Shown here in pieces: positions 1,958 to 51,940 of a stretch of 64,000 bases of DNA. This DNA is from Subtercola boreus (GTDB lineage: Bacteria; Actinomycetota; Actinomycetes; Actinomycetales; Microbacteriaceae), in assembly GCF_003399625.1 (NCBI RefSeq), contig NZ_NBXA01000022.1, forward strand, positions 62,001 through 126,000. Direction: 5' to 3'. Within the stretch, counting starts at the first letter, position 1; every line of letters starts with the position of its first letter. The notes under the pieces are model-generated. The model worked only from the letters and a program-made list of their open reading frames with translations, searched no databases and had not been told where the DNA came from. The translations under genes and the position numbers were made by a program.

Positions 1958-4092
1958 GAGAGGGCCGCCTCGAGCAGGCTCACCAGAGCTTCGAGCTGAA
2001 CGCTGTCGCCCGACGAGATCTCGACATCCGAGCCGTCGAGCGCCCGGGCCGCGAGGCCCTGTTTGCTGTCGATGAGTTCGGCGATCTTCGAGTCGATCGT
2101 CTGGGCGGCGATGATGCGCCACGCCGTGACAGGCTCGGCCTGGCCGATGCGGTGCACGCGGTCGATGGCCTGGGTCTGCTCGGCAGCGGTCCACGACAGT
2201 TCGGCGAGCACCACGTTCGACGCGGCCTGCAGGTTCAGCCCGACACCGGCGGCGGTGAGCGAGCAGACGGCGACCGACACGGCCGCATCGTTGTTGAACG
2301 CGTCGATCTGGGACTGCCGGAACGATGCGGTCTGGTCGCCCCGGATCGAGATCGTGCGGAGGCCTGCCTTCGCCAATGCCTCCTCGGCCTGGTCCATGAC
2401 GTCGATGTGCTTGGCGAAGAACACGACCTTGCCGACGGAACGCGCGAGCTGGGCTGCATAGTCTGCGGCGAGGCCGGCCTTGGCCTGGCCGATCTTCCGC
2501 ACCATCGTGAAGACGTTCTCGCCGGTCGAGGACGACTTCGACTCCTCGAGTTCGGCTTTCGCCACGAGCCGCATGAGCTCCTGGTTCGGGCCGTCGGACG
2601 TGTCGTATCCACTCCCCATCGCACCGGCGGCTGCCCGGCGGTACTTCGTGACGAGACGCTTCCCGAGTTCGGCTTCGGCCTGGCGGATGGATCGCCCGAG
2701 GTCGTCGTCGAGTTCGACCGGGAGGTCGACGACGCGCTTCGCCGGGAGGTCGGCTGCAACATCCACCTTCTTGCGGCGGACGATCCCCATGTCGATGACG
2801 GCCGAGCGGGCCTCGGCGAAGAAGCCGAAGTCTGCGGGGGTGAGGCCGGTCTCCTCCAGCTTGCCCATGAGTTCGGGCGTGGGTTTGTCGCCGTCGATCC
2901 AGCCGAGGAGCTGCCAGATGGCGCGGAAGTCATCGACGTCGTTGATGAGCGGGGTTCCGGTGAGCGCCATCATCAGCGGGTCGCCGCCGGGAGCGAATCT
3001 ACGGATGCGCTCCGCAAGGGCGAGCACGTTCTTCGAGCGCTGCGACTGCATGTTCTTGATGAAGTGCGCCTCGTCGACGACCATGCCCTTGAACCCGAGA
3101 GTGCCGAGCCAGGCGAGATGCCGGTCGAGCACGTCGTAGTTCACGATGACGACGTCGGCGAAGGCATCGAGGTTCGCTCCGTCGCCCTGGATGACCGTGG
3201 CGCGCCTGTGCGGCGTCCAGATCTCGACCTCGCGGGCCCAGTTCATCTTCACGACACTCGGTACGACGGCCAGCAGCGGGTAGGAGTCGGAGACCGAGGC
3301 CGCCAGCAACGACTGCGCCGTCTTGCCGAGTCCGGGCTCGTCGGCGAGCAGAAAGGAGCGGTGACCGGCGGCGACAGCGGCGATGAAACGCGCCTGGTGG
3401 TGCATCAGTTCGTGGCCGGGAGGCGAGATGCGGTCGATCTTCGGCGCTTCGGGGAGGTCCATGCTGGCGACGGTGCCGCCGGAGCCGTACTCGAACGCTC
3501 GGTAGAGCGGGCTGAGGAGCTCCCAGCTCGAGAGGCGCCCGCGCGAGACGGGGCGGTTGGCCGTGGCCGCGCTGAAGTCGGGGGCGAGGAACGGGTTGGC
3601 GAGCTGGCGTGCTTTGACCGACTGCGGCATGACCTGCTTCTCGGCGGCACCGGGCGAGAAGGTGAAGGCGGTGGCGAAGGGCGAGGCGGGCGGCGGTGCC
3701 GGAACCTCTTCTTCGGCTTCGACTTCGATGCCGGCATCCATCAGGTACTCGCGGCGCATGCGCTGCGCCACCGGCGAGACAGCGACATCGCTCTCGAGCA
3801 GGGTGATCAGCGAGGTATCACGAGCGGCCGTCTGGGCGAGGATGCCCGCAATGCCGTCGAGTCGCTTCAGCTGCTCTGCCCGTTCTCCGTCGCTCAGCTC
3901 GGAGTCACCCTTGATACGGGCGCGCTCCTCGCGCATGAGGAGGGCGACCACGAGGAACTTGGTGCGGTTCGAGGGAACGACCTTGCCCCTCTGCGCGGCA
4001 GCCTCGACCTCGCGCACCTTGCGCGCGAGGATGGGGATGAGGCCGGTGTTGTCGACCGTTCGGGTGGACCGGCGAACGCCTGATCGTGACAT
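1954..4092 (-). CDS. SNF2-type DEAD/DEAH helicase
   Basis: This is a 712-residue superfamily 2 ATPase of the SNF2/SMARCAL1-like group. The first 200 residues are charged and of low similarity to known domains. The helicase core follows: motif I DEPGLGKT, motif II DEAH, motif III ALTGTPLIN, and in the second RecA fold motif V GLNLQAASNV and motif VI QAIDRVHRIGQ. Such enzymes translocate on duplex DNA or remodel DNA-protein complexes. The ATG at 4092 has an AGGAGGAGC Shine-Dalgarno directly upstream, which fixes the start. The end overlaps the Stealth gene by ATGA, an unexpected pairing of a DNA translocase with a polysaccharide enzyme. No nuclease, methylase or other defence partner is adjacent, so a housekeeping repair role is as likely as any other. 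Confidence 0.85.
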   Translation of the reverse strand: MSRSGVRRSTRTVDNTGLIPILARKVREVEAAAQRGKVVPSNRTKFLVVALLMREERARIKGDSELSDGERAEQLKRLDGIAGILAQTAARDTSLITLLESDVAVSPVAQRMRREYLMDAGIEVEAEEEVPAPPPASPFATAFTFSPGAAEKQVMPQSVKARQLANPFLAPDFSAATANRPVSRGRLSSWELLSPLYRAFEYGSGGTVASMDLPEAPKIDRISPPGHELMHHQARFIAAVAAGHRSFLLADEPGLGKTAQSLLAASVSDSYPLLAVVPSVVKMNWAREVEIWTPHRRATVIQGDGANLDAFADVVIVNYDVLDRHLAWLGTLGFKGMVVDEAHFIKNMQSQRSKNVLALAERIRRFAPGGDPLMMALTGTPLINDVDDFRAIWQLLGWIDGDKPTPELMGKLEETGLTPADFGFFAEARSAVIDMGIVRRKKVDVAADLPAKRVVDLPVELDDDLGRSIRQAEAELGKRLVTKYRRAAAGAMGSGYDTSDGPNQELMRLVAKAELEESKSSSTGENVFTMVRKIGQAKAGLAADYAAQLARSVGKVVFFAKHIDVMDQAEEALAKAGLRTISIRGDQTASFRQSQIDAFNNDAAVSVAVCSLTAAGVGLNLQAASNVVLAELSWTAAEQTQAIDRVHRIGQAEPVTAWRIIAAQTIDSKIAELIDSKQGLAARALDGSDVEISSGDSVQLEALVSLLEAALS

Positions 4093-11933: not shown

Positions 11934-12794
11934 TCAGATCAGCGACTTCGTGTGCCACACCGTCTTCGTCTCGGTGAACCCGACGATGCGGGCAAGCGAG
12001 GGTGCCGCGGCATCCGAACCCTGCTCGGGCGGGAACACGCGCTTGAGGGTCTCGGCTGCGTCGATCTGCAGTTGCACCCAGTCCAGCGCACCAGCGCCGA
12101 CGAGGTCGAGCGCGTTCACGTCGGCGTGCGACGCGAGCCACGGCGCGATCTCGGCGGGTGAGCCGGTCAGGATGTTGACCACTCCGCCGGGCACATCGCT
12201 CGTCGCCAGCACTTCAGCCAGGCTGATCGCGGAGAGCGGCAGGCGTTCTGCCGCGATGACGACGACGGTGTTTCCTGCGACGAGGGCCGGCGCGACGGCG
12301 CTGACGAAGCCGACCAGAGACGAATCCTGAGGGGCGACGATCGCCACGACACCGGTCGGTTCCGGCACCGAGATGTTGAAGTAGGGACCCGAAACCGCGT
12401 TGGCGTTGCCGGCGACCTGCACGTATTTGTCTGCCCATCCGGCATACCAGATCCAGCGATCGATGGCTTCGTCGACCTGAGCCATCGCAGCCGCTGCTGA
12501 CACGCCTTCGGCGTGCACGATCTCGTCGACGAACTGCGCCCGGCGGCCTTCGAGCAGCTCAGCGATGCGGTAGAGCACCTGCCCACGGTTGTAACCGGTT
12601 GCCTTCGACCAGCCGGAGACGGCAGCGCGCGCCGAGACCACCGCATCACGGGCATCCTTGCGGGATGCCTGCGCAGCATTCGCGAGGAACTCCCCCGAGG
12701 CGTCCAGGATCTCGTACACGCGCCCGGATTCGCTTCGCGGGAATTTGCCGCCGATGTAGAGCTTGTAGGTCTTCGGCACGGCGAGGTGGCTCAT
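11934..12794 (-). CDS. Half-length aldehyde dehydrogenase homologue lacking catalytic residues
   Basis: The 286 residues align with the N-terminal cofactor-binding part of the aldehyde dehydrogenase superfamily: YIGGKFPRSESGRVYEI, ...IWYAGWADKYVQVAG..., VPEPTGVVAIVAPQDSS (in place of the usual IxPWNFP) and LVAGNTVVVIAAERLP. The NAD-loop FTGSxxVG has become DLVGAGALD. The catalytic Cys and general-base Glu region is absent; a 50-residue unrelated tail replaces it. It is therefore probably not an active dehydrogenase alone and may be a structural or regulatory partner of the full-length enzyme. It is translationally coupled to that enzyme through an ATGA overlap (12791-12794), which also sets the start. 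No frameshift is seen that would restore the missing half. Confidence 0.8.
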   Translation of the reverse strand: MSHLAVPKTYKLYIGGKFPRSESGRVYEILDASGEFLANAAQASRKDARDAVVSARAAVSGWSKATGYNRGQVLYRIAELLEGRRAQFVDEIVHAEGVSAAAAMAQVDEAIDRWIWYAGWADKYVQVAGNANAVSGPYFNISVPEPTGVVAIVAPQDSSLVGFVSAVAPALVAGNTVVVIAAERLPLSAISLAEVLATSDVPGGVVNILTGSPAEIAPWLASHADVNALDLVGAGALDWVQLQIDAAETLKRVFPPEQGSDAAAPSLARIVGFTETKTVWHTKSLI

Positions 12795-14347
12795 TTGCTT
12801 GATCCTTCGGTCGTGATGGGAGAAGCAGGCGACTCGACGTTTCCGCTGTCGATCTGGGCGGCACCGGATGCCCGCTCCACCGTTCCCCGAGAAGAGACAC
12901 CCTGCGACGAACCGGCTGGCGCGAGGTACGCCGCCAGGCCCTGCTTGCCGCCCTCGCGGCCGTAGCCCGACTCCTTGTAGCCGCCGAACGGCGACGAGGG
13001 GTCGAACTGGTTGAAGGTGTTCGCCCAGACGACTCCGGCGCGCAGCTTGTCGGCAACCGCCAGCACGCGCGAGCCGTTGCTGCTCCAGATGCCAGCCGAA
13101 AGTCCGTAGGGCGTGTTGTTCGCCTTGGCGACCGCCTCGGCGGGTGTGCGGAACGACAGGATCGACAGCACCGGCCCGAAGATCTCGTCACGCGCAATGC
13201 GCGACGCGGTCGACACGTTGGTGAAGATCGTCGGTGCGAACCAGAAGCCGTCCGTGGGCAGATCGCACGCGGGGCTCCACCGCGAGGCGCCCTCCGCCTC
13301 GCCGATGTCGGACAGCTCGCGGATGCGCGCCAGCTGCTCCGCCGAGTTGATCGCCCCCACATCGGTGTTCTTGTCGAGCGGGTCGCCCACGCGGAGTGTC
13401 GACAGGCGGGCCTTCAGTCGGTCGACGACCTCGTCGTGGATGTTCTCCTGCACGAGCAGGCGCGATCCGGCGCAGCAGACATGACCCTGGTTGAAGAAGA
13501 TGCCGCGCACGATGCCCTCGACAGCTTCGTCGATGGGAGCATCGTCGAAGACGATGTTCGCGCCCTTGCCTCCGAGTTCGAGGGTGAGCTTCTTCGAGGT
13601 TCGGGCAAGCGACCGGGCGATCTCCCGGCCCACGGAGGTCGAGCCGGTGAAGGCGACCTTGTTGACGTCCGGATGATTCACCAGGTCACGACCGGTGGAG
13701 CCGGCCCCCGTGATGATGTTCACCACACCGTCGGGAAGCCCGGCCTGCTGCACGATCTCGGCGAACAGCAGCGCGGTGAGCGGAGTCGTCTCGGCGGGCT
13801 TCAGCACGACGGTGTTGCCGGCGGCCAGGGCCGGCGCGATCTTCCACGCGAGCATCAGCAGCGGGAAGTTCCACGGGATCACCTGGGCGGCGACACCGAG
13901 CGCACGCGGATCGGCGCCAAGGCCAGCGTGGTCGAGCTTGTCGGCCCACCCCGCGTAGTAGAAGAACCAGGCGGCGACGAGGGTGACGTCGACGTCGCGG
14001 CTCTCCTTGATGGGCTTGCCGTTGTCAAGGCTCTCGGCCACGGCGAGCTCACGGGCGCGTTCCTGCACGAGCCGGGCGATGCGGAACAGGTACTTTCCGC
14101 GATCACGGCCGGACAGGCGCGACCACGTCGAATCGTAGGCGCGGCGCGCGGCGGCGACCGCGGCATCCACATCGGCCGAGGAGGCCGATGCGATGGTGGC
14201 GATGTGCTTCTCGGTCGCCGGCGAGATGGTCGAGAACGTCGGGTTCGAACCGGCCCGGAACGAACCGTCGATGAAGAGCCCGTACTCGGACTGCAGGTTC
14301 AGCAGGGCAGTCGACTCGGGTGCGGGGGCATATTCCAGAAATGACAT
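12791..14347 (-). CDS. Aldehyde dehydrogenase (deoC-linked)
   Basis: This 518-residue NAD(P)-dependent aldehyde dehydrogenase has every core motif: VIPWNFPLLML, VLKPAETTPLTAL, FTGSTSVGREI (NAD loop), LTLELGGKGANIVF (general-base Glu) and FFNQGHVCCAGSRLL (catalytic Cys). It also has EIFGPVLSI and the C-terminal PFGGYKESGYGREGG. The last 40 residues are a low-complexity extension. It lies 11 nt downstream of deoC, so a likely role is oxidation of the acetaldehyde released by the aldolase. ATG 14347 follows a GAGGACCC Shine-Dalgarno formed by the deoC stop region. The downstream half-ALDH gene overlaps by 4 bp. Confidence 0.9.
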   Translation of the reverse strand: MSFLEYAPAPESTALLNLQSEYGLFIDGSFRAGSNPTFSTISPATEKHIATIASASSADVDAAVAAARRAYDSTWSRLSGRDRGKYLFRIARLVQERARELAVAESLDNGKPIKESRDVDVTLVAAWFFYYAGWADKLDHAGLGADPRALGVAAQVIPWNFPLLMLAWKIAPALAAGNTVVLKPAETTPLTALLFAEIVQQAGLPDGVVNIITGAGSTGRDLVNHPDVNKVAFTGSTSVGREIARSLARTSKKLTLELGGKGANIVFDDAPIDEAVEGIVRGIFFNQGHVCCAGSRLLVQENIHDEVVDRLKARLSTLRVGDPLDKNTDVGAINSAEQLARIRELSDIGEAEGASRWSPACDLPTDGFWFAPTIFTNVSTASRIARDEIFGPVLSILSFRTPAEAVAKANNTPYGLSAGIWSSNGSRVLAVADKLRAGVVWANTFNQFDPSSPFGGYKESGYGREGGKQGLAAYLAPAGSSQGVSSRGTVERASGAAQIDSGNVESPASPITTEGSSK

Positions 14348-27228: not shown

Positions 27229-28210
27229 GCCGATCCCCCGGCGCCATGGCGTACCACTCGGCCAACCGTTGCAGCCCCTCGTCGAGCGATACCGAGGGCC
27301 GCCAGTCGAGCGCCTGGCGCGTGCGGCGCTGGTCGTACCAGTGCGAGGTCGACAGCTGCTCGGCGAGGAACCGGGTCATCGGCGGCTCGTCCTGCCCGGG
27401 TCGCACGGCCCAGAAACGCTCGATCAGGCCCCCGGCCTCCCGGGCCACCGCGGCCGGTACGCTCCAGGCCGGTGCAGGCGCTCCAGCCGCTCTGCAGATT
27501 CCCGCGAGCAACTCGGCGACCGTTCGCGGCTCGCCGTTCGACACCACGAACGCCTCGCCGTGCACCCGGTCGGCGCGTTCGAGCGCTGCCAGAAGGGCGG
27601 AGGCCGCGTTGTCCACATAGGTCGTGTCGATCAGGGCGAGCCCGCCGCCCAGGATCGGCAGCCTCCGCCGTCTGGCCCGCTCGACCACCCGTTCGATGAG
27701 CTGGGTGTCGCCCGGTCCCCAGACGATGTGCGGGCGAACGGCGACGACGGCGAAACCCGGCTGGTCCGCATCCAGCGCCAGCAGCTCGGCTGCAGCCTTG
27801 GTGCGCGCATACTCCCCCCGCGCGCGAAGTGGATCGGCCGGCAGCGCATCGTCACCGACGATCGAGAGCCCGGCGTGCGCCACAGACGGCGAGGACACCA
27901 TCACGAACCGGCTCACCCCCGCCTCCCGGGCTGCCGAGAGGAGCGAGCGGGTGCCTTCGACGTTGACCGCGCGGAAGTCCTCCGGCGCCCCCGCGAACGA
28001 GACCTTCGCAGCGAGATGGACGACGGCGTCGACGCCATCGGTGGCCAGAGCGACGGCGCCGGCGTCGGTGATGCTGCCCCGGGCATCCGTCGCACCGGCC
28101 ACCCCCGATGCTCCGCGCTGGAACGTGCGCACGTCGTGGCCCGCTGCAAGCACCCCGCGCGCGACGGCCCTGCCGAGCATCCCACTCGCTCCGGTGACCA
28201 GCACCTTCAC
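27221..28210 (-). CDS. oleD: OleD-type 2-alkyl-3-oxoalkanoate reductase
   Basis: This 329-residue extended short-chain dehydrogenase of the 3-beta-HSD-like group has NAD(P)-binding VTGASGMLGRAVARG, a VVHLAAKVSF strand and the catalytic YxxxK in GEYARTKAAAELLAL. Position in the ole operon identifies it as OleD, which reduces the 2-alkyl-3-ketoacid made by OleA to the beta-hydroxy acid that OleC converts to a beta-lactone. Its ATG overlaps the oleBC stop by ATGA, so translation is coupled. Without that context it would only be called an NAD-dependent epimerase. Confidence 0.88.
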   Translation of the reverse strand: MKVLVTGASGMLGRAVARGVLAAGHDVRTFQRGASGVAGATDARGSITDAGAVALATDGVDAVVHLAAKVSFAGAPEDFRAVNVEGTRSLLSAAREAGVSRFVMVSSPSVAHAGLSIVGDDALPADPLRARGEYARTKAAAELLALDADQPGFAVVAVRPHIVWGPGDTQLIERVVERARRRRLPILGGGLALIDTTYVDNAASALLAALERADRVHGEAFVVSNGEPRTVAELLAGICRAAGAPAPAWSVPAAVAREAGGLIERFWAVRPGQDEPPMTRFLAEQLSTSHWYDQRRTRQALDWRPSVSLDEGLQRLAEWYAMAPGDRLS

Positions 28211-31107
28211 GGCTTCGACCGCCGCCCGCCACCCAGCACTCCGGCGGCCCAGGAAGCAAGGCCGAGGCGGTCGATCTTGGAGTTGTGGCGGATGTCCGTC
28301 GGCAGGTCGCCGACCACCAGCACGGCCGCGACGTCGACTCCGGATGCGCGCCTGACCGCCCCCGCCAGGGACGGTTCGGCGAGCGTGACCCGGCCTCGTC
28401 GGGAGCTCGCAGTTGAGGTCTCGATCACGGCGACGACCTGCTGGGTGCCCCGCGGGCCGATGCCGACAAAAGCAGCACGGCGCACCCCGGGCAACGCTTC
28501 GACCGTCTGCTCAGGGCCGACCGGGGTCAGGATGCCCGCCGCCGTGGTGATGACGTGCGGCAGGCGACCCTCGATCCAGAGCCGGCCCTCTGCATCGAGA
28601 TGCCCCACGTCGCCGGTGCGGTGCCAGCGGCCGGTGGCTGCCTCGGCGCCGGATCCGGAGCCCGCCAGCCAGGCGTCTTCCGAGGGTGTTCCCGCCGTGG
28701 CCGCACGATCGGTGAGCCAGAGCTGGTCGTAGTGGTCCTTCAGGTGGGGGGCCGAGACGACGATCTCGCCGGTCACCCCGGGTGCGGCGCTGAGGGGGCC
28801 GGTGGCAGCACCCCGCTCGTCCAGGGCGCTCAGCAGCACCTGCACTCCGGCGACGGGCAGGCCGACGCAGACACCCCCCGGCTGACGGGTGTCTGCCTGC
28901 CCGGGGTGCGCCTTCACCTGCTCCGCTCTGCGAACGATCTCGTCGAGGGTGATGTCGGTCATCAGCAGACCCTCGGTCATGCCGTAGGGAGTGTGGATGC
29001 TCGCGGCCGGCATCAGCAGCGCGACCTCCTCGAGCAGCGGAACGGGCAGCGGTGCGCCGGCGGAGAGCAGGGTCTTCACGCGGGCGAGGGCATTCCGTTC
29101 GACGACGGTCAGGGCATCCGCTTTCGCTGCTGCAGTCGCTGTGGCGCACACGTTCACCAGGGCCGCGGGCGAGGCGAAGACGACGATGGCGTCGACGGCC
29201 GCCGCGGCCTCGGCGATGGCGCGGGCGGTGAGGGTCCGGGGTGCGGTGACGTCCATGTCAGGGGTGACCGAGGTGGCGCCGAGCGCCGGGCCGAGCAGGG
29301 CGAACGGCGCGAATCCCGCCACAAGGCCTGTTCCGGCGGCGATTCCGAACCGGTCGCGGAGCAGGGTGACGAGGGCCGCGAGCTGCCGGTGGGTGTAGAC
29401 GACCCCCTTCGCCGGTCCGGTCGAGCCGGAGGTGAAGAGGATGGCGGCGGTGGCATCCGGGTCGACGGCGGGGTCGGCGGCGGCGGTGTCGACGGACGCG
29501 GCGACGCGAGGCCCTCCGCCGTCGGCGATCGCGGCGCGACCGAGCCGGGCGACCCCCGCGAGAGAGTGGCTCACACCGAGCGCAGCGGCAAGAGGTGCGG
29601 AGAACGTGCGCGTCGAGATGCGCTGTCCGGGCCAGCCCAGCACCCGGGCCGCGGCCAGGGCCGTCTCGATGCCGATGACATGGTCGGGGCGTGCGCCTCG
29701 CACAGCACGGCCGAGGCCCGTGATGCCGAGTCCTGCGTCGGCGACGACGACGATTGCGCCGATGCGGAGGCACGCGTAGAGCACCGCCGTGAGGTCGGCG
29801 CCGGGAGGCACGAGCAGCGACACCCGGTCGCCACGCTCTACGCCGGCAGCCGTGAGGCCGGCGGCGAGTTCATCCACCCGCCGCTTCAGCAGGCTCCAAC
29901 TGACTGAGCGGATGCCGCTCCCCCGCCGGGCGCCGCGCGGGGCCATCTCGACGACGACGGCCCCGCGGTCTGCCGCGTGCTCGTCGAGGGTGGCCCAGAG
30001 CGGCCGGAACTCGGGGGCCGGGGCGGGCTGCGATTCGTCCGGTATGCCCGCGGCTGGCGCGGGAGCTGCCTTCGCGTTCCCGAATCGGGCGGCCAGCCAG
30101 GCGAGGATCATCGGGGCGACCGCGACATCCTCACCGACCAGGTGCCCCGCGTCCTCGAAACGGGTGACGTCGGCGTGGGGCAGGCGCGCGATCAGGTCAC
30201 CGAGGTAACGGTCACTGAAGATGGGGTCGCGGGGACCCCAGAGCATCAGGGCGGGCACGTCGAGCCGGGCGACCGCAGACGAGACGCGCGTGAGTTCCGC
30301 GAAGCTCGGATGTGAGGCGTCGACGGGTATGTCCGCCACGAAGGCACCGATCCCCTCGCGACGCCGGGCCGATCGGTACGGCGCCCGGAAGGCCTGCCGC
30401 ACCCGTGGCTCGAGAGCCGGGTGCGCGATGGCGAGGGTCGTGTCGAGGAAGGCGGTCGTGCGGACGGTGCTGGCAACCAGGAGCGAGCGTTTGAGTACCA
30501 GCCGGAGCGCAGCCGGGAGCGGTTCGTGCTCGGGCTGATGCACCGCCGTGTTGAGCATCATGACCCCGGCGAGGAGCTCCGGATGATCGACTGCCCAGCC
30601 CAGCGAGACGACACCGCCCCAGTCGTGCCCGAGTGTGATGACCGGGCCGGCGAGGCCGAGCGCGTCGGTGAGCGCGCCCAGATCGGCGATGCGCGCCGGC
30701 AGGCCGCGATCGTGACCGGAGCGCTCCGAGAAACCCATCTCGAGCTGGTCGACGGCGATGACCCGCCAGACCGGTGCCGACGGGGGCTCTGCGGCATCTG
30801 CACGTGAGGCACCGGCCAGTGCGGCATCCGTCGCCGCAGCGACGACGCTCCGCCAGAGGTACGACCAGGTCGGGTTGCCGTGCACGCAGAGAATTGTGCC
30901 GGTGGGCTCCAGGCCCGCCTCCGTGAGAAGCGACAGGTTGTCGAGCAGATGCCAGGTGCGCGGAGTTCCGCTGTGGTCGGGGGCCGTGACGAGCCGGGAC
31001 CACCGGGCATCCAGACCCGGGAAGTCGTCGGTGGCAGAGCCAGTCGACCCGGCCGCCTGGTGCACCCCGGGCAGCGACGCCGGCTCGCGCCAGCGCTGAC
31101 GGCCCAT
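28207..31107 (-). CDS. oleBC: OleBC fusion: beta-lactone decarboxylase and beta-lactone synthetase
   Basis: The 966-residue protein joins two enzymes of long-chain olefin synthesis. Residues 40-330 are an alpha/beta hydrolase of the haloalkane-dehalogenase type (ILCVHGNPTWSYLW; nucleophile Asp in LGHDWGGVVSLGW; late His in DAGHLVGED): OleB, which releases CO2 from the beta-lactone. After a short linker, residues 370-960 are an AMP-dependent ligase-fold domain (FTSGSTGPAKGVVYTHRQ, TPYGMTEGLL, TGDVGHLDAEGRLWIEGR): OleC, which closes the lactone from the beta-hydroxy acid with ATP. Fused OleBC is characteristic of actinobacterial clusters. The start ATG shares one base with the oleA stop (TAATG). 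Confidence 0.9.
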   Translation of the reverse strand: MGRQRWREPASLPGVHQAAGSTGSATDDFPGLDARWSRLVTAPDHSGTPRTWHLLDNLSLLTEAGLEPTGTILCVHGNPTWSYLWRSVVAAATDAALAGASRADAAEPPSAPVWRVIAVDQLEMGFSERSGHDRGLPARIADLGALTDALGLAGPVITLGHDWGGVVSLGWAVDHPELLAGVMMLNTAVHQPEHEPLPAALRLVLKRSLLVASTVRTTAFLDTTLAIAHPALEPRVRQAFRAPYRSARRREGIGAFVADIPVDASHPSFAELTRVSSAVARLDVPALMLWGPRDPIFSDRYLGDLIARLPHADVTRFEDAGHLVGEDVAVAPMILAWLAARFGNAKAAPAPAAGIPDESQPAPAPEFRPLWATLDEHAADRGAVVVEMAPRGARRGSGIRSVSWSLLKRRVDELAAGLTAAGVERGDRVSLLVPPGADLTAVLYACLRIGAIVVVADAGLGITGLGRAVRGARPDHVIGIETALAAARVLGWPGQRISTRTFSAPLAAALGVSHSLAGVARLGRAAIADGGGPRVAASVDTAAADPAVDPDATAAILFTSGSTGPAKGVVYTHRQLAALVTLLRDRFGIAAGTGLVAGFAPFALLGPALGATSVTPDMDVTAPRTLTARAIAEAAAAVDAIVVFASPAALVNVCATATAAAKADALTVVERNALARVKTLLSAGAPLPVPLLEEVALLMPAASIHTPYGMTEGLLMTDITLDEIVRRAEQVKAHPGQADTRQPGGVCVGLPVAGVQVLLSALDERGAATGPLSAAPGVTGEIVVSAPHLKDHYDQLWLTDRAATAGTPSEDAWLAGSGSGAEAATGRWHRTGDVGHLDAEGRLWIEGRLPHVITTAAGILTPVGPEQTVEALPGVRRAAFVGIGPRGTQQVVAVIETSTASSRRGRVTLAEPSLAGAVRRASGVDVAAVLVVGDLPTDIRHNSKIDRLGLASWAAGVLGGGRRSKP

Positions 31108-32132
31108 TACCAGACGATCTCGGTCATGGCGGTGTTGATGCCCGAACCGACTCCCATACAGAGGACCCGGTTGCCCCTGACCAGCTTCGAGGATTCGAGA
31201 GCAAGCGTCATCGGAAGCGATGCGGGGCCCACATTGCCGAGTTCCGGGTAGGTCAGCGGGATCCTGTTGCGGTCGAGCTTCGCCGCCTTCACGATGGAGT
31301 CGGTGTGCACGTCACTCACCTGGTGCAGGATGTAGCGGTCCATCTTCTGCCAGTCCCAGGACCCCTTGGCCTCTTTCCACGCCTCGACGACCAGCGCCAT
31401 ACCGCCCGCGAGCAGCTCCTTGGTGTGCGTGAACATGCCGTCTTTGTCGCCGACGCAGAGCAGGTGGTGCTCGGTTCCGGCCCGGGAGATGCCGCCCATG
31501 ATGCGGTGGCCCTCCGGGTGGGCATCGGCCGGGCCGAGCACGGCGGCGGCGGCACCGGATCCGAGGGTGAGCGAGGCGAACTCGTTCACGAAATCCTTGC
31601 GGGAGATGCCCGGCTGCGAGAGGCGGTTGATCGTGTTCGCCTGGATCTCGTTCGAATCCTCACCGTCGACGATCACCGCGTACTTGATCTGGCCCGAGTC
31701 GATCATCTGCGAGGCCAGCGTCATGCCATTCACGAAGCCGAGGCACGCGTTCGTGATGTCGAAGTTCATCGCCGAGGAAGGCAGGCCGAGAGCGTGGTGG
31801 ATGCCCACAGCCACGCTCGGCTCGAGGTGCTTCCGCGTGACGGAGGTGTTGATCAGCAGGCCGACGTCTTTCGGGTCGACCTTCGCCTCGTCGAGCGCTT
31901 CGGCGGCGGCTCCCGCTGCGGCCTCATCGAACGTGCCGTTGTCGTCCCAGTTGCGGCGGGAGATCACGCCGGCGACCCGCTGGAGCAGACCCGTGGGCAG
32001 ACGGAGGCGGGTAAGCGCCTCGGCGAGCCGCACGTCGATCTCCTCCGAGGTCACCACGAGCGGCGCCAGACGCGCCTTCACCGCGAGCAGCGCTGAGTTC
32101 TGATGCCGGAAAGTGGCATTCAAATTAGTCAA
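31107..32132 (-). CDS. oleA: OleA thiolase: head-to-head acyl-CoA condensation
   Basis: OleA condenses two fatty acyl-CoAs to a 2-alkyl-3-keto acid, the first step of long-chain olefin synthesis. The 341-residue product is a KAS III-like thiolase with catalytic Cys130 in FDITNACLGFVNGM, His in RYILHQVSDVHT and Asn in GNVGPASLP. The start is TTG 32132 because AGAAGGA stands just upstream and no ATG or GTG is available before the conserved part. The longer open frame has no similarity. It lies first in oleA - oleBC - oleD. Its C-terminal GVGSGINTAMTEIVW is typical of OleA. Confidence 0.9.
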   Translation of the reverse strand: MTNLNATFRHQNSALLAVKARLAPLVVTSEEIDVRLAEALTRLRLPTGLLQRVAGVISRRNWDDNGTFDEAAAGAAAEALDEAKVDPKDVGLLINTSVTRKHLEPSVAVGIHHALGLPSSAMNFDITNACLGFVNGMTLASQMIDSGQIKYAVIVDGEDSNEIQANTINRLSQPGISRKDFVNEFASLTLGSGAAAAVLGPADAHPEGHRIMGGISRAGTEHHLLCVGDKDGMFTHTKELLAGGMALVVEAWKEAKGSWDWQKMDRYILHQVSDVHTDSIVKAAKLDRNRIPLTYPELGNVGPASLPMTLALESSKLVRGNRVLCMGVGSGINTAMTEIVW

Positions 32133-32212
32133 TGGAGTCCTTCTGCGCCTGATGCGGTTGCGCCTGTGCGATGACACGGTGATGCAGCCAATCCATGACT
32201 GCGCATCTGTCA

Positions 32213-32218
32213 AGTCTA
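32213..32218 (-). promoter_or_regulatory. Candidate -10 box TAGACT for the ole operon
   Basis: In the 202-bp gap between proS and oleA the minus strand carries TAGACTTGACAG. TAGACT matches -10 boxes elsewhere in the window and would give a leader of about 75 nt. The overlapping TTGACA looks like a -35, but no -10 follows at 16-18 nt. The gap also holds a weak 7-bp hairpin (32300-32323) after proS. Confidence 0.35.
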
Positions 32219-32334
32219 GGTTGAGCTTGGTGTGAGTTCGCCCACCGGCGCTACCGCCTCGATTCGGGCGGGCGGCAGTGCTATGGGACGGCTCGGAGCT
32301 CCCGGCTGGACAGTGCGCCGGGAACCCCTCGGAT

Positions 32335-34119
32335 TCAGAGGGCCGGAACGACCCCGTCGAGCCCGACCTCGGTGCGTTCGCCGGTGGCCCGGTTCCAGAG
32401 TTCGACCGTTCCGTCAGCCACGCCGCGGCCCACGATGACGATCGTCGGCACACCGATCAGCTCGGCATCACCGAACTTCACGCCGGGCGAGACCTTGGGC
32501 CGGTCGTCGAAGAGAACCTCACGACCAGACGCCTCGATGTCGGCGACGATGCGCTCGGCGGCCTCATAGACGGCCGCGTCACGACCGGTGGCGACCACAT
32601 AGACGTCGAACGGCGCCACCGCGGGGGGCCAGATCAGGCCCTTCTCGTCGTTGTTCAGTTCGGCGATGATCGCGAGGATGCGCGTCACACCGATACCGTA
32701 CGAGCCCATGGTGACCGTGACGAGCTTGCCGTTCTCGTCGAGCACCTTGAGGCCGAGGGCCTCGGCGTACTTGCGGCCGAGCTGGAAGACGTGCCCGATC
32801 TCCATGCCGCGGGCCGTCTCGATCGGGCCTGAGCCGTCGGGAGCCGGGTCACCGTCCCGAACATCTGCGACCTCGACGAAGCCGTCGCCCACGAAGTCGC
32901 GGCCGGCGACGAGGCCGAAGGCGTGCTTCTCGTGCTCGTTGGCGCCGGTGATCCACTCGGTGCCGGTGACCACGCGGGGGTCGAGCAGGTAGCGGATGCC
33001 GGTGCTCGACTTCTCGCCGAGCACGGCGTTGCCCGCGACATCTCCGCCGGGCTGCGCGGTTGCCCAAGGCCCGATGTAACCCTTGACCAGGCCCGGGTGC
33101 TTCGTGAAGTCGTCTTCGTTCGCGGCCTCGACCTCGGCCGGCTGGAAGGCGACCTCAGCGCGCTTCAGATCCGCATCGCGGTCCCCGGGGATGCCCACGA
33201 CGACGATCTCGCGGCTGCCGTCTAGCTGCGTGATGGCGAGCACGACGTTCTTCAGGGTGTCGGCCGCGGTCCATTCGCGACCGTCAGTGCGGGGTTGCTC
33301 TTCGTTCGCCAGGGCGACAAGGCTCTGGATGGTCGGGGTGTTCGGTGAGTCGAACACCGTCGGTGCGGGCAGGCCCTCGACCGGCAACGCCTCGGGCACG
33401 AGGGTCGTGAAGGCTTCGACGTTGGCGGCGTAGCCACCCGCGGAGCGCACGAAGGTGTCTTCGCCCACCGGGGTGGGGTGCAGGAACTCCTCGCTCTTCG
33501 AGCCGCCCATCGCACCGGCGTCAGCTTTGACGATCACGTATTCGAGGCCCAGTCGTGTGAAGATACGCTCGTACGCATCGCGCTGAGCCTGGTACGACAC
33601 GTCGAGACCGGCATCGGTGTAGTCGAAGGAGTAGGCATCCTTCATCGTGAACTCGCGACCCCGCAGCAGGCCTGCACGCGGCCGCGCCTCGTCGCGGTAC
33701 TTGTCCTGGATCTGGTAGATCGAGAGCGGGAGGTCTTTGTAGCTGCTGTACAGGTCTTTCACCAGCAGGGTGAACACTTCTTCGTGGGTCGGCGCGAGCA
33801 CGTAGCCCACACCGCGGCGGTCTTCGAGGCGGAACATGCCGTCGCCGTAGTCGACGTAGCGACCGGTCGCCTCGTAGGGCTCCTTCGGCAGCAGGGCCGG
33901 GAAGTGCACCTCGTGCGCTCCGGCGTTCGACATCTCCTCGCGGACGACCTTCTCGATCTTCGCCTTGACGCGGAGCCCGAGCGGAAGCCAGGCGAAGATT
34001 CCCGGCGCCTGGCGACGGATGTACCCGGCCCGCACGAGGAGCCGGTGGCTGGTCACCTCCGCGTCGGAGGGGTCTTCACGGAGGGTCTTCAGAAAGTAGT
34101 TTGTGAGGCGAGTAGGCAC
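32335..34119 (-). CDS. proS: Prolyl-tRNA synthetase
   Basis: This 594-residue class II aminoacyl-tRNA synthetase is of the bacterial type with an internal editing domain. Motif 1 lies in [12 protein letters not shown], motif 2 in [21 protein letters not shown] (read in two parts), motif 3 in [16 protein letters not shown]. The editing insertion is between [18 protein letters not shown] and the second part of the core. The C-terminal anticodon-binding domain has [15 protein letters not shown] and [11 protein letters not shown]. The start is GTG 34119, 6 nt after a TAGACT box and without a Shine-Dalgarno, so a leaderless mRNA is likely. No T-box is seen. Confidence 0.96.
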
Positions 34120-46208: not shown

Positions 46209-49200
46209 ATGACCTCCGCTTCGAACACCCCTGCCCCGTCGGACATCGCGAGCGGGGGCGGCGGCACGACGAGCGCCGGCACGGGCACCGCCAGCCCCGC
46301 GACCCCGAGCGAGAGCGCCGGCATCCTCAGCGCCGGGCCGACACCCGAGCCGCGCACGCTGGTCGACATCCTGCGGGAGAGTGCCGCCTCGAACCCGCAG
46401 GCCTCCGCCCTCGCAGACGCGGCGGGCACCCTGAGCTACCGCGAGCTGCTCGGCGAGGTGAACCGCACCGCGGCCCGGCTCGCGGAGGCCGGTGTGCGAC
46501 GCGGCGACCGGGTGGGGATCCGCATCCCGTCGGGCACCCGCACGCTCTACATCTCGATCCTCGGGGTTCTCGTCGCCGGAGCGGCGTACGTTCCGGTCGA
46601 CGCTGACGACCCCGAGGAGCGCGCAACGCTCGTCTTCGGCGAGGCCGGAGTGGTCGGCGTCATCGGTGCCGACGGCGAGCTGGTGCTGAGCGGGCATCCG
46701 GATGGCGCGGGAGCGTCCAGCGACGACAACGACCTTCCCGGGCATCCGGCCACCGCGAGCATCCCCGCCGCCGGCTCGCCCACCGGCACTCTCCCCGTGG
46801 TCGGCGGTCCGACCCCCGACCTCGACGCGTGGATCATCTTCACCTCCGGCTCGACCGGCACCCCCAAGGGTGTCGCTGTGAGCCACCGCTCGGCCGCGGC
46901 GTTCGTCGACGCGGAGGCGCGGATGTTCCTGCAGAACGAGCCGATCGGTCCCGGCGACCGCGTGCTCGCGGGCCTCTCCGTCGCCTTCGATGCCTCGTGC
47001 GAGGAGATGTGGCTCGCGTGGCGACACGGCGCCTGCCTCGTTCCCGCCCCCCGTTCGCTGGTGCGTTCCGGGGTGGATCTCGGCCCGTGGCTGATCTCGC
47101 ACAGCATCACCATCGTCTCGACCGTGCCGACGCTCGCGGCGCTCTGGCCCCTCGAGTCGCTGGAGCTGGTGCGGCTGCTCATCTTCGGCGGCGAGGCCTG
47201 CCCACCCGAGCTCGTCGCACGCCTCGCCGTCGACGGCCGCGAGGTCTGGAACACCTACGGACCCACCGAGGCCACAGTGGTCGCCTGCGGATCCCTGCTC
47301 GACGGAGTCGGCCCTGTGCGCATCGGGCTGCCGCTCGACGGCTGGCTGCTGGCCGTGGTCGATGGTGACGGCCATCCGGTCGCCGAGGGCGAGACGGGCG
47401 AACTCATCATCGGCGGGGTCGGGCTGGCGCGCTACCTCGACCCGGCCAAGGACGCCGAGAAGTACGCGCCGATGCCGACCCTCGGCTGGGATCGCGCCTA
47501 CCGCAGCGGCGACCTCGTGGTGTTCGACCGTGCCGGGCTGCTGTTCCAGGGCCGCGCCGACGACCAGGTGAAACTCGGCGGACGGCGAATCGAGCTGGGC
47601 GAGGTCGAGGCGGCGATCCAGGCCCTGCCCGGGGTCGCGGGTGCGGCCGCCGTGGTGCAGCGCACCGCCGCAGGAAACCAGGTGCTCGTGGGATACCTGG
47701 TCTCAGGCGACACTAGCGCCCCGTTCGACACGGTCGCCGCTACGGCGGCGCTTCGCGAATCGCTCCCGGCCGCCCTCATCCCCCTGCTCGCAGTCGTCGA
47801 CGGCCTGCCGACCCGCACCTCGGGAAAGGTCGACAAGGCGGCGCTGCCGTGGCCGCTGCCGAGTGGGCGGAGTGGAGGAACCCGGAACGGTGCCGGGGCA
47901 GGTGGCAGCGCAGCATCCGGAGCGTCGGGGGGCAGCAACAACGGCAACAGCAACGGCAACGTCGGCAACGGTGCACGCCCCCGTAAGGGCGAAAGCCCGG
48001 ACTCCCCCCTCACCGACACAGCCCTCTGGATCGCCGAACACTTCACCGCCATCCTCGGCGCCCCGGTCACCGGCCCCGACGACGACTTCTTCGCGTTCGG
48101 CGGCGGGAGTCTGTCTGCCGCCCAACTGGTGTCGGTCATCCGCACCCGGTTCCCGGAGACCACGGTCGCCGACATCTACGACCACCCGCGCATCGGCGCA
48201 CTGGCCGCGGAACTGGATGCCCGCTCCCCCGTCGTCGCGGTGAGACGCGTGCCCGTACGACCGACCCCGCCGGGCACCCAGCTCGCCCAGACCCTGCTCG
48301 GCATCCCGCTCTACGTACTCGTCGGGCTGCGCTGGCTCACCTACGTGCTCGCCGTGAACAACGTGCTCCAGCTGTTCGGCGTCTTCACCTGGGCGCCCAC
48401 CATCTCGTGGTGGTACATCCTTGCCGGGTTCGTTCTGCTGATCACCCCGTTCGGGCGCATGGCGATCTCGGTGCTCGCGGCCCGCACGCTCCTGGCCGGC
48501 GTCGAAGCCGGGGATCACCCGCGGGGCGGGAACGTGCACGTGCGCCTCTGGCTCGCCGAGCAGATCGCCCAGCTGGTCGGTGCGACGAACCTCGCGGGCG
48601 CACCGTGGATCATCACCTACGCCCGGGCACTGGGCGCGAAGATCGCCCCCGGCGTCGACCTGCACACCCTCCCGCCCATCACCGGCATGCTGAAGATCGG
48701 CGCCCGGGCCTCCGTCGAACCCGAGGTCGACCTGTCGGGCTACTGGATCGACGGTGACATCCTGCGGCTCGGCGCCATCCAGATCGGGGCGGATGCGGCC
48801 ATCGGTGCGCGGAGCACCCTCCTGCCGGGAACACGGATCGGGCGACGAGCCGAGATCGCCCCGGGTTCCGCCGTCTCGGGCCGGGTTCCCGCGGGACAGC
48901 TCTGGGCCGGATCCCCCGCCGAACGACGCGGCAAGGCCCACCCCGACTGGCCGAGCGGCAGGCCGCCCCGGAACGCCCGCTGGCTGGTCGCGTTCGCTGC
49001 CGGCTCGGTGGCGCTCTCGCTCCTGCCCGTGCTGGCTGTGCTCGCCGGGGCGGCCGTCGCAGGCTGGTTCCTCGGGCTGAGCCTTGACCCCGGCGCCCTC
49101 GGCGGTTTCGGGAGCACCGGCGGCGGTTCGGCCCAGACGCCCCTGTTCGAGTCGGTCACGACATCGGTCGCGAGCACCGCGGGCACGGCGACCGGATCCG

Positions 49201-50588
49201 GCTTCACGCCCCTGCCGACCCTCGGCGACGCCGCCCTGCGCCTGCTGGCGGCCATCCCGCTCGCCACGGTCGCGGCCGGCATCGTCTACGCGGGGCTCAC
49301 CGTGATCGCGGCGCGCCTGCTCGGCATCGGCCTCCGCCCCGGCAGCTACCCCGTGCGGAGCCGAATCGGATGGCAGGTCTGGGCGACCGAACGCCTGCTG
49401 GATGCCGCTCGTACCGTCCTTTTCCCCTTCTACGCGAGCCTCTTCACGCCCGTCTGGCTCCGGATGCTCGGGGCCACCGTCGGCCGGAACGTCGAAGCCT
49501 CGACAGTGCTCCTCCTGCCGAAGATGACCACGATCGCCGACCAGGCCTTCCTCGCCGACGACACCATGGTCGCCTCCTACGAGCTCGGAGGGGGCTGGCT
49601 CCGCATCGACGAGGCGAAGGTCGGCAAGCGCGCCTTCCTCGGCAACAGCGGGATGACCGGCCCCGGCCGCACCGTTCCACGGAACGGTCTCGTGGCTGTT
49701 CTCAGCGCGACCCCCCGCAAGGCCAAGAACGGATCCTCATGGCTCGGCAACCCGCCCGTGCGCCTGCGCCGACAGGTCACCGAGTTCGACGAGGGCCGCA
49801 CCTTCCACCCCTCGGGCCGGCTGAAAGTCGCCCGCGCGCTCTGGGAACTGGGCCGCCTCGTACCCGTGATGGTCACCGTCGCGATCGGCCTCGGAATCGC
49901 CGTTCTGCTGGAATTCCTCCTCGGCACGCTCGGACTCGGCTGGGCGATCCTGCTCTCGGGCGCGGTGATGCTCGCGGGTGGTGCGGTCGCGGCGATCGTC
50001 ACGACGGCGGCGAAATGGGCACTCGTCGGGCGCATCCGTCAAGGGGAGCATCCACTCTGGTCGTCGTTCGTCTGGCGGAACGAAGTGTCGGATACCTTTG
50101 TGGAGATGGTTGCCGCTCCCTGGTTCGCGAACGCCGCCTCTGGTACGCCCGCTCTGGCGTGGTGGCTGCGGTCCATCGGCGCGCGCATCGGGCGGGGCGC
50201 CTGGATCGAGACGTACTGGCTGCCCGAGGCCGACCTGATCTCCCTCGGGGCGGGCTCCACGGTCAACCGGGGTGTGGTCGTTCAGACGCACCTCTTCCAC
50301 GACCGCGTGATGAGCCTCGACTGTGTTGCACTCGACGACGGAGCGACGATCGGGCCGCACGGAGTCATCCTTCCTGCCGCGTCGATCGGCAGCGACGCGG
50401 CCGTCGGGCCGGCCTCGCTGGTGATGCGGGGCGAGCACGTTCCCTCGGGGTCGCGCTGGGCGGGCAATCCGATCGCGCCCTGGGCCGAGCAGACGCCTGC
50501 TCCGGATGTCGCGGGCCGGGGTTCCTCCGCGCTCCGTGTCGAGACCGCGGCCGAAGCCGGCCTGCACTCGCCGTCGGTGGGTGGCTGA
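46209..50588 (+). CDS. Pls/PosA-type membrane NRPS (homo-poly(amino acid) synthetase candidate)
   Basis: This 1,459-residue protein has the architecture of epsilon-poly-L-lysine synthase (Pls). An adenylation domain contains IIFTSGSTGTPKGVAVSHR (A3, about residue 210), VAFDASCEEMWLAW (A4), NTYGPTEATV (A5), YRSGDLVVF (A7) and RTSGKVDKAALP (A10). A Gly/Asn linker leads to a carrier domain with Ser634 in DDDFFAFGGGSLSA. Six membrane helices alternate with three tandem acyltransferase-like C-terminal domains rich in left-handed-helix repeats. There is no condensation or thioesterase domain. In Pls the C-terminal domains join free and bound lysines without a template. The start is ATG 46209, with AGGA upstream; GTG 46170 and ATG 46200 are alternatives. 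The M1 peptidase gene overlaps its stop. Confidence 0.88.
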   Translation: MTSASNTPAPSDIASGGGGTTSAGTGTASPATPSESAGILSAGPTPEPRTLVDILRESAASNPQASALADAAGTLSYRELLGEVNRTAARLAEAGVRRGDRVGIRIPSGTRTLYISILGVLVAGAAYVPVDADDPEERATLVFGEAGVVGVIGADGELVLSGHPDGAGASSDDNDLPGHPATASIPAAGSPTGTLPVVGGPTPDLDAWIIFTSGSTGTPKGVAVSHRSAAAFVDAEARMFLQNEPIGPGDRVLAGLSVAFDASCEEMWLAWRHGACLVPAPRSLVRSGVDLGPWLISHSITIVSTVPTLAALWPLESLELVRLLIFGGEACPPELVARLAVDGREVWNTYGPTEATVVACGSLLDGVGPVRIGLPLDGWLLAVVDGDGHPVAEGETGELIIGGVGLARYLDPAKDAEKYAPMPTLGWDRAYRSGDLVVFDRAGLLFQGRADDQVKLGGRRIELGEVEAAIQALPGVAGAAAVVQRTAAGNQVLVGYLVSGDTSAPFDTVAATAALRESLPAALIPLLAVVDGLPTRTSGKVDKAALPWPLPSGRSGGTRNGAGAGGSAASGASGGSNNGNSNGNVGNGARPRKGESPDSPLTDTALWIAEHFTAILGAPVTGPDDDFFAFGGGSLSAAQLVSVIRTRFPETTVADIYDHPRIGALAAELDARSPVVAVRRVPVRPTPPGTQLAQTLLGIPLYVLVGLRWLTYVLAVNNVLQLFGVFTWAPTISWWYILAGFVLLITPFGRMAISVLAARTLLAGVEAGDHPRGGNVHVRLWLAEQIAQLVGATNLAGAPWIITYARALGAKIAPGVDLHTLPPITGMLKIGARASVEPEVDLSGYWIDGDILRLGAIQIGADAAIGARSTLLPGTRIGRRAEIAPGSAVSGRVPAGQLWAGSPAERRGKAHPDWPSGRPPRNARWLVAFAAGSVALSLLPVLAVLAGAAVAGWFLGLSLDPGALGGFGSTGGGSAQTPLFESVTTSVASTAGTATGSGFTPLPTLGDAALRLLAAIPLATVAAGIVYAGLTVIAARLLGIGLRPGSYPVRSRIGWQVWATERLLDAARTVLFPFYASLFTPVWLRMLGATVGRNVEASTVLLLPKMTTIADQAFLADDTMVASYELGGGWLRIDEAKVGKRAFLGNSGMTGPGRTVPRNGLVAVLSATPRKAKNGSSWLGNPPVRLRRQVTEFDEGRTFHPSGRLKVARALWELGRLVPVMVTVAIGLGIAVLLEFLLGTLGLGWAILLSGAVMLAGGAVAAIVTTAAKWALVGRIRQGEHPLWSSFVWRNEVSDTFVEMVAAPWFANAASGTPALAWWLRSIGARIGRGAWIETYWLPEADLISLGAGSTVNRGVVVQTHLFHDRVMSLDCVALDDGATIGPHGVILPAASIGSDAAVGPASLVMRGEHVPSGSRWAGNPIAPWAEQTPAPDVAGRGSSALRVETAAEAGLHSPSVGG

Positions 50589-51940
50589 TGGCGCGCCCCA
50601 CCTCCACGGCACTGGCGGCGGCGGGAGCCCGCTCCCTCGGCGACCCCTACCTGCCGACCAGCGGCAACGGCGGCTACACCGTGCTGCACTACGACATCGA
50701 CTGCGACTACCGCGTCTCCTCCAACCGGCTGAGCGCCACGGCCACCATCACCGCCGTGGCCACGCAGCGCCTCTCGAGCTTCAGCCTCGACTTCGCCGGG
50801 CTCGTCGCGAGCAAGGTGAGCGTCGACGGGCACCGCTCGGCGCACCTCACGCAGACCGCCCGGAAGCTCGTCGTCACACCCCTCACGCCCCTGAACAAGG
50901 GCGTGGAGTTCACGGTCGTTGTCAAGTACAGCGGCCAGCCGAAGCCGGTGCGGAGCCAGTGGGGCGAAGTCGGCTGGGAGGAACTCACCGACGGCGTGAT
51001 CGTGGCGGGGCAGCCGAGCGGGGCGCCGTCGTGGTTCCCCTGCAACGATCATCCGTCGAACAAGGCGACCTACACGATCGCCTTCACCGCCGAATCGGCC
51101 TACCGCGTGCTCTGCAACGGTGAACTCCTGAAGAAGACGCAGCGCGCCTCCCGCACGCGCTGGGAGTTCCGATCTTCCGAGCCCCTGGCGACCTACTTGG
51201 CGACCGTGCAGATCGGGCTCTACGAGACCATGCACGTGTCCCAGGATGGCGTTCCGCAGTTCGTGTTGCTGCCCGACGACCTGCGGCCCAACGCTCTCGC
51301 CGACTTCGAGGCGCAGGGGCGCATGATGGCCCTGTTCGAGCGACTGTTCGGGGAGTATCCGTTCGACGACTACACGGTCGTGGTGACCGACGACGAGCTG
51401 GAGATCCCGCTCGAAGCCCAGGGCCTCGCGATCTTCGGCCGCAACCACATCGACGGGGTGGGCGGCTCCGAGCGACTCATCGCCCACGAACTCTCCCACC
51501 AGTGGTTCGGCAACTCGCTGACCGCCGCCCACTGGAAGGACATCTGGCTGCACGAGGGCTTCGCCTGCTACGCCGAATGGCTCTGGTCGGAGGAGTCCGG
51601 ATCGCTCACGGCCGACGACTGCGCGACGGCCGCGTGGACGCGCCTCAACCGCCTGCCGAAAGACCTGATGATCGGCGACCCGGGCGCCGCTCGGATGTTC
51701 GACGACCGGCTCTACAAGCGCGGGGCACTCACGCTGCACGCGCTCCGCCGCACGCTCGGCGACGACATCTTCTTCCGGGTGCTGCGGGAGTGGGTGGCGG
51801 CGCACCGCCACGGCTCGGTCTCGACCCCCGAGTTCGTCGCCCTCGTGCAGTCGCACTCCCCCGCACCCGTCGGCGCCCTCTTCGCCGCCTGGCTCGACCA
51901 GCACGCCCTCCCCAAGCTCCCGCGCCGCGCCCCCCGCTGA
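50588..51940 (+). CDS. M1-family zinc aminopeptidase
   Basis: This 450-residue metallopeptidase has the zinc site H300-E-L-S-H304 in IAHELSHQWFGNSL, with Glu323 in WLHEGFACYAEWLW, giving HExxH-X18-E. The GxMEN exopeptidase motif is replaced by LEAQGLAIFG, as in short bacterial M1 members. It lacks a signal peptide and the large C-terminal helical domain, so it is a cytoplasmic compact form. Its ATG shares a base with the NRPS stop (TGATG), so the two proteins are made together. M1 enzymes are the known epsilon-poly-lysine degraders in Streptomyces; here it may trim or recycle the product, or protect the cell from it. Confidence 0.9.
   Translation: MARPTSTALAAAGARSLGDPYLPTSGNGGYTVLHYDIDCDYRVSSNRLSATATITAVATQRLSSFSLDFAGLVASKVSVDGHRSAHLTQTARKLVVTPLTPLNKGVEFTVVVKYSGQPKPVRSQWGEVGWEELTDGVIVAGQPSGAPSWFPCNDHPSNKATYTIAFTAESAYRVLCNGELLKKTQRASRTRWEFRSSEPLATYLATVQIGLYETMHVSQDGVPQFVLLPDDLRPNALADFEAQGRMMALFERLFGEYPFDDYTVVVTDDELEIPLEAQGLAIFGRNHIDGVGGSERLIAHELSHQWFGNSLTAAHWKDIWLHEGFACYAEWLWSEESGSLTADDCATAAWTRLNRLPKDLMIGDPGAARMFDDRLYKRGALTLHALRRTLGDDIFFRVLREWVAAHRHGSVSTPEFVALVQSHSPAPVGALFAAWLDQHALPKLPRRAPR

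Follow-up and report, generated by a model that had tools for sequence, protein, structure and literature searches.

The epsilon-poly-L-lysine (epsilon-PL) synthetase gene of Streptomyces albulus, pls, is translationally coupled to the adjacent pldII gene, which encodes the major epsilon-PL-degrading enzyme (PMC9223678), and an operon combining pls with a peptidase gene has also been described in Corynebacterium (PMC8117764). Here we describe a gene pair of this kind in Subtercola boreus (Microbacteriaceae), located at positions 46209 to 51940 of a 64,000-nucleotide stretch of its genome (hereafter the window; contig NZ_NBXA01000022.1, positions 62,001 to 126,000), in which a pls-type non-ribosomal peptide synthetase (NRPS) gene overlaps a gene for an M1 metallopeptidase. 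We propose that this pair is very probably a pls operon directing the synthesis of epsilon-PL, whose linked M1 enzyme would cut the polymer back, and this would tie a genus of the Microbacteriaceae to a known antimicrobial-polymer pathway.

The Streptomyces polymer is secreted and PldII is sited outside the membrane; repression of pldII results in lower tolerance, longer chains and cell loss, indicating a role in self-protection (PMC9223678). PldII is called an endo-type enzyme, yet one-by-one cutting from the N-terminus is described in the same source (PMC9223678). The Corynebacterium Pls is 51% identical to a Streptomyces counterpart and its product was proven to be epsilon-PL in S. coelicolor, and Pls homologues were noted in Microbacterium and other coryneforms (PMC8117764). 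The operon of Corynebacterium variabile is like that of the window in being non-streptomycete and in including a peptidase gene, but it belongs to a different family, and the window pair is known from sequence alone. For relatives of the window enzymes adenylation, polymer formation by the full-length enzyme and degradation by PldII have been shown by others. The work on pls-pldII in S. albulus (PMC9223678) and the description of the Corynebacterium operon (PMC8117764) contradict the suggestion, made in an earlier note on this DNA, that little study has been given to pairs of this kind.

More distant comparisons are offered by synthetases of the same family that make other polymers. The delta-poly-L-ornithine synthetase PosA of Acinetobacter baumannii shares the architecture of the window enzyme and a conserved Asp and Glu in the pocket, but it has Met at pocket position 2 and, in the account published for it, is encoded by a single-gene operon without a peptidase (PMC10522769). 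Poly-diaminopropionate (DAP) and poly-diaminobutyrate (DAB) synthetases also belong to the family, but carry Phe at pocket position 2 (PMC10522769) and are described in gene contexts other than that of the window (PMC8117764). The maker and its pairing with a breaker are already known in this sense, and the non-exported breaker of the window lineage is a variant. In a limited search of the open-licence literature we found neither a count of the pairing across the Microbacteriaceae nor a discussion of exported versus non-exported linked M1 enzymes.

Architecture and substrate pocket of the synthetase

The locus comprises the following features, all on the forward (+) strand of the window:
46209..50588, +: pls, epsilon-poly-L-lysine synthetase-type NRPS of 1,459 amino acids (open reading frame (ORF), family profile and PDB match)
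46371..47828, +: adenylation (A) domain, residues 55-540, pocket DAESIGTVVK (Pfam and alignment)
48027..48212, +: carrier (T) domain, residues 607-668 (Pfam)
48282..50030, +: membrane segments at about residues 692-717, 725-762, 924-967, 1003-1046 and 1207-1274 (the last two helices), with domains C1 and C2 between pairs (hydropathy)
50031..50585, +: last of the three C-terminal domains (C3), containing QTHLFHDR (alignment)
50586..50590, +: TGATG, pls stop and M1 start with a 1-base overlap (sequence)
50588..51940, +: pls-linked M1 metallopeptidase of 450 amino acids, with HEXXH-X18-E intact and I-P-L-E-A at the GAMEN site (Pfam and alignment)

The closest PDB match is the A domain of an epsilon-poly-L-lysine synthase, 7wew (E 5.6e-187; 60.6% identity across the aligned A domain), which we take to be the S. 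albulus enzyme. Alignment to 7wew, with pocket positions placed by motif, identifies the pocket residues as D261, A262, E265, S304, I325, G327, T349, V357, V358 and K540, and all ten are identical between the two proteins. The earlier note had read D-A-E-T-I-G-T-V-V by eye; eight of these letters hold, whereas the fourth is S304 and not T305, because the spacing from D261 to S304 (+43) equals that from D217 to H260 in PosA, whose pocket is numbered D217, M218, E221 and H260 (PMC10522769). Position 2 of the pocket is Ala in the lysine enzyme, Met in the ornithine enzyme and Phe in the DAP/DAB enzymes (PMC10522769). As the window enzyme has Ala262, neither the Met of PosA nor the Phe of the DAP/DAB type, and matches the 7wew pocket throughout, the basic substrate proposed before, left there between lysine, ornithine and diaminobutyrate, can be narrowed to lysine. 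The predicted specificity of the A domain for L-lysine is well supported by the identity of its pocket with that of a solved Pls A domain.

The remainder of the protein is also of the Pls type. A Pfam scan (E up to 0.001) recovered AMP-binding at residues 55-408, PP-binding at 607-668 and a hexapeptide repeat at 857-890, and found no condensation or thioesterase family; AMP-binding_C at 465-540 is a weak match of 21.2 bits, below its cut-off of 24.5. Residues 693-1422 match TIGR02353, the NCBIfam profile for the NRPS terminal domain of the Pls/PosA family, with 713.2 bits against a cut-off of 423.1. The hydrophobic stretches listed above were delineated by family-averaged hydropathy, and that at 1207-1274 is read as two helices because it is 68 residues long; a further short stretch, 1069-1088, was left out of the count. 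The C-terminal part is thus read as containing three pairs of membrane segments, six in all, and the successive pairs are followed by about 160, 160 and 185 residues. This bears out the layout first proposed for the protein (one A and one carrier domain, neither condensation nor thioesterase domain, six helices and three C-terminal domains) and agrees with the C1-C3 and TM1-TM6 arrangement in print (PMC8117764), and a published model joins C1 to C3 in a single left-handed beta-helix unit of pseudo-threefold character (PMC10522769). In an alignment of 32 Pls sequences the histidines kept in at least 30 rows are H777 and H819 in the first of these three domains and H1361 and H1364 in the third, the latter two, within QTHLFHDR, in all 32; the second domain has none.

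Three candidate starts, GTG 46170, ATG 46200 and ATG 46209, share the pls frame. Its TGA stop occupies 50586-50588 and the ATG of the M1 gene begins at 50588, the last base of the stop codon, so that both the coordinates and the TGATG overlap had been correctly placed; this overlap suggests that the two genes are translationally coupled.

Conservation of the pairing and descent of the linked peptidases

TIGR02353 is present in 118 of the 299 Microbacteriaceae genomes sampled, distributed over 41 of 85 genera. An M1 gene lies directly downstream on the same strand in 116 of these 118, among the matches listed, a count that uses the 118 best M1 rows and leaves out lower-scoring rows of the stand-alone type; in the other two genomes (G219, G264) the TIGR02353 match ends at a contig edge. 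This survey had been suggested as a way of refuting the adjacency, and it did not refute it.

A second set consisted of 110 related loci besides that of the window, 30 from the Microbacteriaceae sample and 80 from named genome contigs, of which 108 are distinct (the duplicates being from Compostimonas suwonensis and Lacisediminihabitans profunda); it is biased because the loci were chosen for closeness. All 110 have an M1 gene within 4 kb of pls and in the same direction, and the distance is within 600 bases in 111 of 112 loci (the window's own counted twice), the exception being L070 with 2.1 kb. In 80 of the 110 loci (79 of the 108 distinct ones) a start codon lies at offset -4 or -1 relative to the end of pls; these two offsets account for 54 and 30 start codons respectively, against no more than 6 at any other offset between -40 and +40. 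The pls-M1 pairing is far beyond chance. The pocket is likewise DAESIGTVVK in all 102 loci for which it was taken from an alignment, and of the remaining eight, read by five motifs, seven fit all five and one (L036) fits four. As the breaker follows the maker so tightly in the Microbacteriaceae, the M1 gene should be a usable marker there for lysine-type Pls.

In some loci of Tsukamurella and Williamsia (L070, L073, L075, L086, L092) pls and the M1 gene are separated by additional ORFs, the gaps being about 0.6-2.1 kb; reading these ORFs by eye, we take them to be GNAT-like in L073 and L075, and DoxX-like and on the other strand in L086 and L092. In two deposited sequences, L128 (G076) and L147 (a StoSoilB13 plasmid), pls is split between frames by a frameshift or sequencing error.

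The pairing extends beyond the family. In a phylum-wide sample 14 of 296 genomes scored above the TIGR02353 cut-off (one more, G311, shows two partial matches that stay under the cut-off), and each of the 14 has one copy with an M1 gene behind it, as judged by eye, at a distance of about 370 bases in G583. Four of them, belonging to one genus that we regard as Streptomyces-like and having genomes of 8.9-9.9 Mb, show the same pocket motifs in a locus of 72-74% GC, and their Pls and M1 proteins are 54-55% and 50-52% identical to those of the window, with the start codon at -13 in three of the four. Matches were also present in 19 plasmid records, and in five of the eight plasmid loci looked at an M1 gene follows pls; all five lysine-pocket motifs occur in seven of the eight, and three in the eighth (L149). 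The M1-less pls gene of the Rhodococcus opacus plasmid NZ_CP095404.2 (L143) lies near MarR-family, response-regulator and phoU genes.

The linked peptidases also group together in phylogenetic trees. In a tree of 43 M1 sequences (38 linked and 5 stand-alone, taking every third named locus) the linked proteins group together, with an orphan M1 from genome G293 inside the group (98/96), and one stand-alone row is very long-branched. The same split, between three stand-alone M1s and the rest, has 100/100 support in another tree, built from 33 sequences (29 linked, including five plasmid loci, and 4 stand-alone), which again has the orphan among the linked proteins and leaves the inner order mostly open; two M1s from S. 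albulus-type Streptomyces, used as stand-ins for S. albulus PldII, fall inside the linked clade on a long branch (1.31). The linked M1s, including that of the window, form a common clade apart from the stand-alone M1s. The orphan (L127; G293:C16, about 12656-13921, minus strand) is of the pls-linked type, and no pls match was found in the 20 kb around it. In the tree it adjoins L137 and L138, from genomes of the same genus (g20) in which the pair is present, and the linked M1 of a third g20 genome (L136) lies elsewhere within the linked group. It is likely that pls was lost in G293 and the breaker kept.

The pair occurs in six same-genus genomes, and in four of them its neighbours are the same, namely genes for a histidine kinase, RseP, DXR, FKBP, a major facilitator superfamily (MFS) protein, a gamma-aminobutyrate (GABA) transaminase and asparaginase II. 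Among the 80 named loci (flanks of up to 7 kb) these occur 2, 3, 3, 1, 10, 10 and 1 times respectively.

Features of the linked M1 peptidase

The prediction that the next gene encodes a compact M1 peptidase is confirmed by Peptidase_M1_N and Peptidase_M1 matches in a protein of 450 residues, and its closest solved relative is 6a8z, a compact putative zinc metalloprotease. All 111 linked M1s examined, among which that of the window is counted twice, carry HEXXH-X18-E. At the GAMEN site, placed by eye, the window protein has I-P-L-E-A, and in an alignment of this protein with 40 linked relatives Glu276 is kept in all 41 and Ala277 in 40.

As judged by hydropathy and length only, none of these 41 proteins shows an export signal: 4-29 residues (median 15) precede a conserved Tyr, none of these extensions is hydrophobic (the best 15-residue hydropathy is 0.5), and the N-termini show no twin-arginine-like motif. 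In the window M1 the extension is 20 residues long and non-hydrophobic. By a coarser hydropathy test (1.8 over 15 residues, from script-chosen starts) none of 111 linked M1s reaches 1.8 within the first 50 residues, and five have a 19-residue segment of at least 1.6 further in; the cut-off of this test is too coarse and would miss the signal-like N-terminus of a Streptomyces M1 (L150, 1.36) considered below. The genome of the window also has a second, stand-alone M1 (L121; G000:C25, about 1627-3459), whose N-terminal region is hydrophobic and whose Glu-Asn is intact; it is probably an exported paralogue.

As stand-ins for S. albulus we used the plasmid loci of Streptomyces sp. BHT-5-2 (L150) and Streptomyces NBC_01454 (L144), whose A domains are 92% and 81% identical to 7wew. 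Their M1 genes overlap pls by 4 bases and are ORFs of 1,404 bp, the published length of pldII (PMC9223678). Such S. albulus-type Streptomyces have the synthetase layout, the 7wew pocket and an overlapping M1 as the next gene, just as in the window. The N-terminal hydropathy of the L144 M1 is 1.94, and the signal-like N-termini of both proteins fit the published siting of PldII outside the membrane.

Proposed product of the operon and possible role of the breaker

Based on these observations, we envisage L-lysine as the substrate that the A domain would activate and transfer to the carrier domain. The membrane-bound C-terminal part would bond each lysine through its alpha-carboxyl to the epsilon-amine of the following one, yielding epsilon-PL, and the overlapping M1 zinc peptidase would cut the polymer back for producer protection, for setting chain length, or for both. 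In the window lineage the M1 probably acts inside the cell, given that no export signal was seen. Because each residue of epsilon-PL has a free alpha-amine beside the scissile carbonyl, cleavage by an enzyme of aminopeptidase fold whose pocket is open need not be confined to the chain end and could also be internal. The maker-breaker reading of the earlier note is well supported as a functional prediction by the Pls layout, the lysine pocket and the M1 in a conserved overlapping operon.

A number of points weigh against this reading. Substrate, product, M1 activity and M1 location in Subtercola boreus are deduced from the genome. In C. variabile itself epsilon-PL was not detectable under the test conditions of that report (PMC8117764), and therefore the window operon too may be silent. 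Three of the eight plasmid loci, from R. opacus, Mycobacterium intracellulare and S. viridifaciens, have no M1; of these M1-less loci L143 and L145 show the five lysine-pocket motifs and L149 three of the five. No M1 was seen by eye behind four extra family matches in three phylum-sample genomes (G459, G426 and two in G306). The window proteins also differ from those of L150 and L144: Pls is about 49-54% and M1 about 42% identical, the Streptomyces M1s are extended at the N-terminus by 33 residues that include S-R-R and a hydrophobic stretch and look signal-like by eye, a feature that the window M1 lacks, and they read V-E-N-Q (Glu-Asn) where the window M1 reads L-E-A-Q. Given this low identity of the M1s and the differences at the N-terminus and the Glu-Asn, what has been published on PldII can be applied to the window with less confidence. 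Lacking the signal-like extension that goes with a site outside the membrane, the window M1 is a variant rather than PldII proper.

The pair might instead make a different cationic polymer, such as poly-ornithine, poly-diaminobutyrate or poly-beta-lysine, with the M1 trimming that product. The family does make such polymers (PMC10522769), and pocket codes are not always predictive of substrate; however, identity to a solved lysine enzyme at ten of ten positions, with an Ala at position 2 that goes with lysine (PMC10522769), makes this very improbable. The Phe-type copies that we encountered, second Pls/PosA-family synthetases with a D-F...E (DAP/DAB-type) pocket in three genomes of one genus (g71; L118, L119, L120), show a low identity of about 30% and lack an M1 neighbour. 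It is also very improbable that the M1 functions as a general aminopeptidase and stands behind pls by accident: compact M1 enzymes are common, the best solved match is a putative zinc metalloprotease and some lysine-type Pls genes are without an M1, but the near-complete co-occurrence and start-stop overlap in the Microbacteriaceae and the common clade of linked M1s argue against coincidence.

A further alternative is a mainly internal role for the operon: the polymer would not be secreted as an antimicrobial but would be both produced and recycled within the cell or at its surface, with the M1 serving as a cytosolic recycling enzyme. The short non-hydrophobic N-termini of all 41 window-type linked M1s are consistent with this, as are the retention of the pair in two Microbacteriaceae genomes of 1.6-1.7 Mb (G181, G270) and its one fixed place in the four same-genus genomes looked at. 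Nevertheless, Streptomyces epsilon-PL is secreted and cells are lost upon pldII repression (PMC9223678), the distribution in the family is patchy, and a cytosolic M1 would equally fit plain self-protection of a secreting cell, so that we consider such a role unlikely. Returning to the preferred reading of an epsilon-PL operon with a linked breaker, we tentatively raise the possibility, itself rather doubtful, that there are two kinds of linked breaker: that of S. albulus-type Streptomyces would be exported, and that of the window lineage and most other linked loci read would be cytosolic, with no export signal and with the Asn of GAMEN replaced by Ala, the latter being part of an intracellular make-and-recycle module with internal cutting. 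If so, an M1 made beside the synthase by translational coupling would clear polymer inside the cell, and G293 would be a resistant non-producer. This directs attention to whether the breaker of a given lineage works inside or outside the membrane, and to whether an aminopeptidase fold is enough for internal isopeptide cutting.

Elsewhere in the window, positions 28207-32453 on the minus strand encode a fusion protein of an alpha/beta-hydrolase and an AMP-ligase beside a KAS-III-like protein; the two resemble an OleBC fusion and OleA of long-chain olefin synthesis.

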